A stretch of 64,000 nucleotides of DNA, taken from NCBI GenBank assembly GCA_958296445.1, contig OY282565.1:2063570-2127569 (forward strand), written 5' to 3'. The stretch is from an uncultured Dehalococcoidia bacterium. Its GTDB lineage: Bacteria > Chloroflexota > Dehalococcoidia > Lucifugimonadales > UBA3495. The notes under the pieces were generated by a model. It was not told where the DNA came from and did not search any database. It worked only from the letters and a program-made list of their open reading frames with translations. Shown in pieces: positions 53,915-62,791 of the stretch. A program made the translations under genes and the position numbers. Position 1 is the stretch's first letter. Each line of letters opens with the position of its first letter.

Positions 53915-54613
53915 TTAGGCGGAATAGCGGCGGATGGCGCCGTGGCGCAGGCCCACTACCGGGTGGTATTGGCCGGAATGGAGGGCTTTCAGGAATTCGG
54001 CTTCGGTGGTTATTTCGTCGTGAAACTCGGTTACGAACTTGCCTAGGCCGTGGAGGGAATGGGCGTCGCTGCCGCCGGTTACGGGCAGGTTGAGCAGTCC
54101 GGCGACTTTGAGGGCGAAGTCGTTTTCGCGGTCTATGGTGCCGCCGTTGGCGACTTCTACGGCGTCGGCCAGCTTGAACACGGGATGCTCTAGGGCTTCC
54201 TCGGGGGCGTTGGGCAGTTCGTCGGGCACTGACTGGTAAATCAGGGCGCGGGAGCGGTTGCCGTTGCCGCTCAGGACGCCGCGGAAGGGATGGGCGGTGA
54301 TGACGAATCCCCCGGCGGCGGTGGCGGCCCGGCGCAGTTCGGCGGCCTTGTTGAAACCGGGCTGGTAGCGGTCGAGGCCGAAGGCCAGCATATGGCCCAT
54401 ATCGGTTTCGACTTCCATAGCCCGTATCAGGACGACGCTGTGGAGGGCGGCGAATTTCTGAAACTCGTGGCGGTCCCACGGCCCGGCGTGTTCGGTGATG
54501 CAAAGGCCGCGCAGCCCCAGCCGGTCGGCTTCCAGCACCATATCTTCGGGGGTGAGGCTGCTGTCGCTGCTGCCTTTGGTGGTGTGTATGTGCAGGTCAA
54601 AGAGTCGGGCCAT
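53915..54613 (-). CDS. PHP-domain metal-dependent phosphoesterase
   Basis: 232 residues. FDLHIHTTKGSSDSSLTPEDM (HxH metal motif), GLRGLCITEHAGPWD, VLIRAMEVETDMGHMLAFG, FVITAHPFRG and NLPVTGGSDAHSLHGLG supply the ordered metal ligands of the PHP family. Probably a phosphatase or nuclease of small substrates; not a polymerase PHP. Confidence 0.87.
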   Translation of the reverse strand: MARLFDLHIHTTKGSSDSSLTPEDMVLEADRLGLRGLCITEHAGPWDRHEFQKFAALHSVVLIRAMEVETDMGHMLAFGLDRYQPGFNKAAELRRAATAAGGFVITAHPFRGVLSGNGNRSRALIYQSVPDELPNAPEEALEHPVFKLADAVEVANGGTIDRENDFALKVAGLLNLPVTGGSDAHSLHGLGKFVTEFHDEITTEAEFLKALHSGQYHPVVGLRHGAIRRYSA

Positions 54614-61164: not shown

Positions 61165-61193
61165 TTGACAACCGGCAAGGGCATAGCTAAAAT
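61165..61193 (+). promoter_or_regulatory. Consensus sigma-70 promoter of the UGA-containing DsbA-like gene
   Basis: TTGACA (61165-61170) and TAAAAT (61188-61193) are exactly 17 bp apart, placing the start of transcription near 61200. Confidence 0.75.
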
Positions 61194-61260
61194 TCAGGGC
61201 AAGCGCCGCCCATCCCGGAACCACGCAAGGGCGGACGCCAAAACCGGCAGGAGGCATATA

Positions 61261-61887
61261 ATGGCCGAGGCTGAGTTCACCAGCTACTACGATTTCCGTT
61301 GACCCTTTGTCTACAATGCCAACATGTGGTTGGCAAAGGTTCGGGAGCTGACCGGCAACCCCATCGAGGTTGACTGGCAGCCCTTCTCCCTGTCCCAAGT
61401 CAACAACAAGGACGGCGACAACGTCTGGGAACGCCCCGACGTCATAACCGGCTCCGACCCCATCCTCCTGGCCCACAAGGCCGGGCTGGCCGTCAAGCGG
61501 CAGGGCAAAGACGCTTTCGAGGCGTACTTTATGGCCCTGCTAAAGGCCCGCCACGAGGACAAGGCCGACCTGAACGACCAGGCTGTCATAGACGCGGCCG
61601 GCGACGCCGCCGGAATTGACATGGCCCGCTTCCGGGAAGACATCTCCGACCCCGACCTGATGCGGGAGCTGGGCGATAGCCACACCAAGGCGGTGGAAGA
61701 GTACGGCGCTTTCGGCGTGCCTACCTTCGTCTTCGACAGCGGCAACTTCGCCTTCCTCAAAATGTTCATCCCCCCCGATGAACAGGCCGTGGAAATCTAC
61801 GACAACCTGATGACTTCGATGAGCCAGTTCGCCCACGTCGGGGAGTTCAAGCGCCCCCAGCCGCCCTGGCCCCATGGCGTCATCTAA
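61261..61887 (+). CDS. DsbA/FrnE-like thioredoxin-fold protein with in-frame UGA: probable selenoprotein
   Basis: 208 residues if UGA 61300-61302 (codon 14) is read as selenocysteine. ATG 61261 has AGGAGG 6 bases upstream. EFTSYYDFR-U-PFVYNANMWL corresponds to the first strand and active-site helix of the DsbA family, whose members carry CPxxY here; the frame then continues uninterrupted through VDWQPFSLSQVNNKDG and the cis-Pro loop FGVPTFVFDSG near residue 160. A 7-bp stem (61317-61323 with 61329-61335) with loop AUGUG begins 14 nt after UGA, 21 nt from UGA to loop, as expected for a bacterial SECIS. No selA/B/C/D in the window. A nonsense mutation or sequence error is the alternative. The gene overlaps rnc by 14 bp. 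Confidence 0.78.
61317..61335 (+). promoter_or_regulatory. Putative bacterial SECIS element
   Basis: UGCCAAC-AUGUG-GUUGGCA, a perfect 7-bp stem with a 5-nt loop containing GU, starting 14 nt after the in-frame UGA. The loop does not have G in the first two positions, so it departs from one published consensus rule. Confidence 0.6.
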
Positions 61888-62791
61888 GCCCCCTGTCATC
61901 GGTTCCCCGCCTTCCCATCCCCCCCAACGGGGCGGACGGGAAGACGGGGCCTCTCTGCTGGGGTTCCGCTTTCGGGATCCCGGCCTTTTCCGTCGCGCCC
62001 TAGTCCACCGCTCCTATTGCAACGAGCATAACCTAGACGCCACCGAGTCCTATGAACGCCTAGAGTTTCTAGGCGACGCCGTGCTAGAGCTCACCGTCTC
62101 CGCCCACCTCTATCGCCAGCTCCCCGACGCCGACGAAGGGCAGTTGACCAAAGCCCGCGCGTCGCTGGTGCAGGGCGAAACCCTAGCCCAGGTAGCCCGC
62201 CGCTGGGGCCTAGACGAGCTGCTGGTAGTCGGGCGCGGCGTCGAAGCCTCCGGCGGGCGCAACCAAGACTCCGTTCTAGCCGCCGCCGCCGAAGCCGTCA
62301 TAGCCGCAGTCTACCTCGACCAAGGATTAGAAGCGGCCCGCGAGTTCATCACCGTCAATATGATTGACGAAATGGCAGCCGTCACCCTAAGCCTATCCAA
62401 AGGCGGCACGCCGCCGGAAAACCCCAAATCCCGCTTGCAGGAATACCTGCAAGGGCAGGGACGGCCCGCCCCAACCTACCGGCTGGCCCACCGCCAAGGC
62501 CCCGACCACAACCCGGTGTTCAGCGTCGAGGCAGTATCCAACGGCGAAATAATCGGCGAAGGGCAAGGCGGCAAAAAGTCGGACGCAGAACGCGCCGCCG
62601 CCGCCGCCGCCCTAACCGCCCTAACAACCCGCGCCGAACCCGACAAAAACCCGCCCCCGGCCCAATCCCCACCAGCCCCACGCCGTGACGCCCAGCCGCC
62701 CGCGCCCGCCGCCGGCGAACCCGCGCCGCCCCCACACACCGGCCGCGCCCCCCGGTTCCTGCGGCGGCTAGGCTTGGGAAAGCGCAGTTAG
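61874..62791 (+). CDS. rnc: Ribonuclease III with C-terminal extension
   Basis: 305 residues, ATG 61874 overlapping the DsbA-like gene. YERLEFLGDAVLEL is the RNase III signature (catalytic Asp/Glu), EAVIAAVYLDQG the second acidic site, and a double-stranded-RNA-binding domain (PKSRLQEYLQ...SDAERAAAAAALTAL) follows. A ~60-residue Pro/Ala-rich tail ending in basic residues is extra. TLSLSKGGTPPEN between domains resembles a dispersed repeat read in frame. Confidence 0.95.
   Translation: MASSKPPVIGSPPSHPPQRGGREDGASLLGFRFRDPGLFRRALVHRSYCNEHNLDATESYERLEFLGDAVLELTVSAHLYRQLPDADEGQLTKARASLVQGETLAQVARRWGLDELLVVGRGVEASGGRNQDSVLAAAAEAVIAAVYLDQGLEAAREFITVNMIDEMAAVTLSLSKGGTPPENPKSRLQEYLQGQGRPAPTYRLAHRQGPDHNPVFSVEAVSNGEIIGEGQGGKKSDAERAAAAAALTALTTRAEPDKNPPPAQSPPAPRRDAQPPAPAAGEPAPPPHTGRAPRFLRRLGLGKRS

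Follow-up and report, generated by a model that had tools for sequence, protein, structure and literature searches.

This locus raises the question of whether the single in-frame TGA of an otherwise open reading frame is a stop, an error or a codon for selenocysteine (Sec). The frame lies in a window of 64,000 nucleotides, by which we mean the whole stretch of DNA analysed. It contains no stop other than this TGA at codon 14 and is preceded by a Shine-Dalgarno sequence and promoter-like hexamers (Table 1). A sequence-only reading of the window had claimed these elements and proposed a likely selenoprotein. On re-reading, the frame with its one TGA was exact, and so, at the level of the sequence, were the Shine-Dalgarno sequence and both hexamers. 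Read-through gives a product of 208 residues, MAEAEFTSYYDFR-U-PFVYNANMW..., with zero Cys and with the motif DFRUPFV around Sec14. By comparison of sequences, the gene very probably encodes a selenoprotein with Sec at UGA 14, and translation of this UGA as Sec in the cell is very likely. The conservation of the UGA, the sel genes, a hairpin and Cys in outgroups all support the original proposal.

Table 1. Positions, within the window, of the predicted Sec gene, its signals and the gene that follows it
Feature	Position	Strand	Remarks
Promoter-like TTGACA-17-TAAAAT	61165..61193	+	From sequence; TTGACA 61165-61170, TAAAAT 61188-61193, spacer 17 nt
Shine-Dalgarno AGGAGG	61249..61254	+	From sequence; 6 nt before ATG
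Predicted Sec-containing DsbA-fold gene	61261..61887	+	208 residues, Sec14; ATG 61261-61263, stop TAA 61885-61887
UGA codon, predicted to be read as Sec (residue 14)	61300..61302	+	Catalytic Cys position
Bacterial SECIS-like hairpin	61317..61335	+	7-bp stem 61317-61323 (UGCCAAC) / 61329-61335 (GUUGGCA); 5-nt loop 61324-61328 (AUGUG); constraint and covariation
rnc (RNase III)	61874..62791	+	TIGR02191, 234.6 bits; downstream of the Sec gene

The strongest argument comes from the relatives. An order-level sample of 59 genomes, which ranged from the order down to closer relatives and counted the genome of the window itself, yielded a full-length homologue in 47, and the codon at the site is TGA in 46 of these 47 orthologues and TGT (Cys) in one (G042). 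A wider survey covered 400 genomes of the phylum and 80 named loci. Over its 196 homologue loci, drawn from partly overlapping sets, the site is TGA in 136, TGT or TGC in 60, and nothing else. The UGA is thus common to other genomes of the clade, Cys is found in outgroups, and homologues that lack the TGA all have Cys there, as had been claimed in calling this the position of a catalytic Cys. The named loci all belong to Chloroflexota, being SAR202, Dehalococcoidia or records labelled just Chloroflexi; the guess of a SAR202-like Chloroflexota host was therefore right, the nearest named relatives being SAR202/Dehalococcoidia. The closest of the named loci, in Chloroflexi bacterium SB0662_bin_29, is 91% identical. 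Against the nearest relative, the whole frame gives a dN/dS of 0.067 at a dS of 0.73. The residues on either side of the TGA are invariant or almost invariant. At their own ends, the Sec genes of the named loci (L069-L148) carry TAA or TAG in nearly all cases and TGA only in L136, L139 and L147.

The gene order is conserved as well. In the window, rnc follows the Sec gene directly and, counted from its first possible ATG, shares 14 nt with the end of that gene. In 80 of the 80 named loci rnc lies directly downstream of the Sec (once Cys) gene, its first possible start in many of them either showing the same 14-nt overlap or falling within 30 nt; ftsY, cca and a dehydrogenase gene are also nearby in many. 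Such an arrangement could mean that the decoding of UGA is mainly a regulatory device: at low selenium, translation would stop at codon 14, less of the overlapping rnc would be expressed, and the enzyme would be of secondary importance. The constant gene pair and the frequent overlap are what one would expect of such a switch, yet the protein is under strong purifying selection, its active-site residues are conserved, and the rnc starts are only putative. Moreover, the pair does not need Sec, since the same arrangement is kept where homologues in the order have Cys (L140, L172 and L173). We consider a mainly regulatory role very improbable. Improbable, too, is a translational coupling of Sec gene and rnc as a fixed pair in SAR202, by which selenium supply, acting through the decoding of UGA 14, would tune RNase III and hence RNA processing, or, alternatively, a one-selenol enzyme that would work with RNase III in RNA-related redox control. 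Within 1.5 kb of the homologues from other classes, no rnc was seen.

The possibility that the TGA is a real stop in a pseudogene, or a wrong base due to a sequencing or assembly error, could not have been dismissed from a single genome; an internal ATG at 61324, downstream of the TGA, opens an ORF of 187 residues. The recurrence of the identical TGA in dozens of genomes, each assembled separately, the low dN/dS across the entire frame and the (nearly) invariant residues on both flanks leave next to no room for it; the earlier claim that the gene is not decaying is borne out by the same 46 of 47 orthologues and the same dN/dS. The internal ATG has a practical side: gene finders that halt at the UGA or start from an internal ATG would miss the active site.

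The selenoprotein reading further implies that the cell can make and insert Sec, and its genome encodes what is needed for this. It contains selB, selA (536 bits), selD (376 bits) and a tRNA-Sec (67.9 bits) with the anticodon UCA and the anticodon loop CUUCAAA. A search for selA, selB, selD and the tRNA had been put forward as a check by the sequence-only reading, and all of them were found. The selD gene (L047; G000:C1:1386245-1387165, minus strand) itself carries one TGA in frame, where selD usually has Sec or Cys (SHCAGUAAK), and is a second selenoprotein gene of the same genome. In the order-level sample, selA exceeds the cut-off in 52 of 59 genomes; it was undetected in six TGA-bearing MAGs that are incomplete (G009, G014, G018, G024, G029 and G058; completeness 56-87%). 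Its presence was further tested in 71 homologue-bearing genomes, which partly overlap the earlier sample. Six of them lack selA (G153, G156, G185, G260, G268 and G272; completeness 89-97%), and all six have Cys at the site. Cys at the site does not require the loss of selA, because many Cys genomes possess it. In a metagenome study of sponges, most of the symbiont bins were noted to have SelA and SelB (PMC5649159), and three SAR202 bins of that study (22, 87 and 16) fall among the named loci considered here.

This complete machinery also bears on the idea that UGA has been reassigned in the lineage, or is read through as another residue such as Trp. The frame is indeed open across the UGA, as such an idea would demand, but orthologues carry a single internal TGA, homologues without TGA have Cys at the site and never Trp, and neighbouring genes end in TGA; the chance of a reassignment is very small. 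The genetic code is standard, because the neighbouring cca and dehydrogenase genes terminate in TGA; the claim that TGA is an ordinary stop elsewhere proved true for their ends and for the two sites that had been cited. A scan of the window by codon usage revealed no convincing further gene with an in-frame TGA besides the Sec gene; one weak and unconvincing candidate appeared at position 54230 (plus strand). In short, the conserved TGA/Cys site, the dN/dS and the normal TGA stops led us to reject a pseudogene, a sequencing error and a reassigned code alike.

A bacterial Sec codon should be followed by a SECIS element, and the proposed hairpin starts 14 nt after the UGA, with a distance of 21 nt from UGA to loop. 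The perfect 7-bp stem claimed at this place is exact, and the stem-loop is conserved in relatives. Its significance emerges from comparison. In a control, the codons downstream of the site were swapped for synonymous ones and the folding was compared with that of the natural sequence. The natural Sec sequences fold better than their controls: this gene scores a z of −2.65 and 86 distinct Sec genes a mean of −1.64, which does not amount to 86 independent tests because the sequences are related; 60 Cys genes average −0.02, i.e., they show no constraint. The stem also covaries. Among 81 Sec genes, 35 cells are doubly changed and still paired, versus 11.9 in shuffles (0 of 500 shuffles as high), and by covariation score the register of the stem tops every slid register. 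The consensus core of the Sec genes is CAGCC-GUGU-GGCUG, and the register of the lower stem differs between sub-clades. Folding of the single sequence, taken as the 43 nt that follow the UGA, yields an insignificant z of −0.68 and a different best structure. The hairpin is therefore carried by the comparative test, the fold of a single sequence being weak evidence.

Published SECIS criteria ask for a stem of 4-16 bp, a loop of 3-9 nt, a distance of 16-37 nt from the UGA and an MFE of −7.5 or lower. The hairpin lies within these bounds with 7 bp, 5 nt, 21 nt and −9.2 kcal/mol. We do not use these generic criteria as evidence, because Cys genes pass them too when the best of many sub-windows is taken, and Sec and Cys genes are not separated by them. 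A further criterion, a G within the first two nucleotides of the loop, is not seen here, the loop AUGUG beginning with AU; many relatives with the loop GUGU do have it. It is not a strict condition, since, according to a review of the model, some SECIS elements depart from it. No Rfam family matches the hairpin.

The mixture of Sec and Cys in the family has a history. A quick tree of 120 homologues, with the Sec/Cys site masked, requires 10 Sec/Cys changes, of which at least eight are forced by well supported branches. As read from this tree, the family has seen about 10 exchanges between Sec and Cys, direction aside. Other classes of the phylum have Sec lineages of their own; among these, one locus has the Sec form DYLUPWCY, i.e., UxxC (L202), and another, from a Rv2466c-type branch, has DPIUPWAW, i.e., UPWA (L209). 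Because the catalytic residue has switched repeatedly between Sec and Cys on an otherwise Cys-poor scaffold, and lineages of the survey that lack selA have Cys, nature provides a clean series in which to ask what is gained by Sec. In the order itself, a selenoenzyme is maintained throughout a whole group of uncultured ocean and sponge bacteria.

What kind of enzyme this may be is suggested by its fold. Pfam assigns the product to DSBA (PF01323; 1.1e-17, 64.9 bits versus a gathering cut-off of 25.6) and to the Rv2466c-like family (PF22234; 7e-9, 36.5 bits versus a gathering cut-off of 27). The AlphaFold2 model is a confident DsbA-type thioredoxin fold with the helical insert (pLDDT 92.3, pTM 0.87). 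In it the first long helix (15-31) begins right behind Sec14, which occupies the place of the nucleophilic Cys of relatives. A conserved FGVPT forms the putative cis-Pro-type loop. The CxxC or UxxC redox pair of canonical DsbA/FrnE is absent: the motif is UPFV, with Val17 at the second position. Likewise, 110 of the 136 Sec homologues contain no Cys at all. The chemistry would then be that of a single selenol, because Val occupies the second position and most Sec homologues are free of Cys. The position of Sec, the machinery, the hairpin and the single chalcogen residue are established by comparison at the sequence level; that the protein acts as a one-selenol (UxxV) reductase has about an even chance of being correct.

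The sequence of events would be as follows. SelB and Sec-tRNA(UCA) would decode UGA 14 as Sec, guided by the hairpin downstream, and the product would be a selenoprotein of the cytosol that belongs to the DsbA/Rv2466c-like superfamily of thioredoxin folds. The selenolate of Sec14 would attack a substrate that is oxidised or electrophilic. The selenenyl adduct so formed would be resolved by an external thiol, the part played by mycothiol for Cys19 in the mycobacterial Rv2466c. A search of this genome for MshC, as an indication of mycothiol as the partner, gave two hits of 302 and 231 bits, below the cut-off of 485; both look CysRS-like by eye. The second CysRS-like gene (L219; G000:C1:1961700-1964000, minus strand) has a frame that, again by eye, continues into an apparent glycosyltransferase start.

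Among known proteins, DR2335 of Deinococcus radiodurans (PDB 7dk9, 7dka) is the best match by sequence (4.6e-18) and also the best structural match of the model in the PDB (E 1.7e-12, TM about 0.77), with Rv2466c next. Its Cys24 aligns with Sec14, the difference being Cys there and Sec here. Members of the DR2335 group in Deinococcus are described as DsbA-like with a single Cys (PMC8945050). Rv2466c, or Mrx2 (PDB 5xur, 4zil, 4nxi; PF22234), has the same fold and the nucleophile Cys19 at the place of Sec14. In Rv2466c, Cys19 works with mycothiol and Cys22 makes an inactive disulfide (PMC11841060); the Sec protein, in contrast, has Val17 in place of this second active-site Cys. DrFrnE (DR_0659), a cytoplasmic protein (PMC8945050), shares the DsbA-like fold but has a CxxC and a C-terminal CxxxxC, neither of which occurs in the Sec protein. 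The original DsbA/FrnE-like assignment is to be refined in that DR2335 and Rv2466c are nearer to the family than FrnE is.

The sequence-only reading had also called a Sec-containing member of this branch notable, which has to be toned down, as UxxV and DxxUP DsbA-like selenoproteins are already catalogued. The Global Ocean Sampling survey lists DsbA 1 and 2 (UxxC) and DsbA 3 (UxxV, five sequences), the latter without a taxon in the text (PMC2398784). Compared by motif only, "DsbA 3" (pfam01323; Zhang and Gladyshev 2008) is of the same Pfam family and has the UxxV motif. A 2026 review (PMC13188914) lists a "DsbA-like protein form 2" (PF01323, DxxUP, MDP6049977.1) and refers it to a 2016 survey. 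D-F-R-U-P fits DxxUP exactly, again in a comparison by motif only; the alternative name of form 2, crotonase/enoyl-CoA hydratase, does not fit the Sec protein. In the open-access papers searched we found no account that links the family with SAR202/Chloroflexota, with rnc or with a repeated exchange of Sec and Cys. The lineage-wide fixation, the absence of other Cys and the fixed place by the RNase III gene appear to be undescribed; the gene itself, judged by its motif, falls within a type of predicted selenoprotein that is already known.
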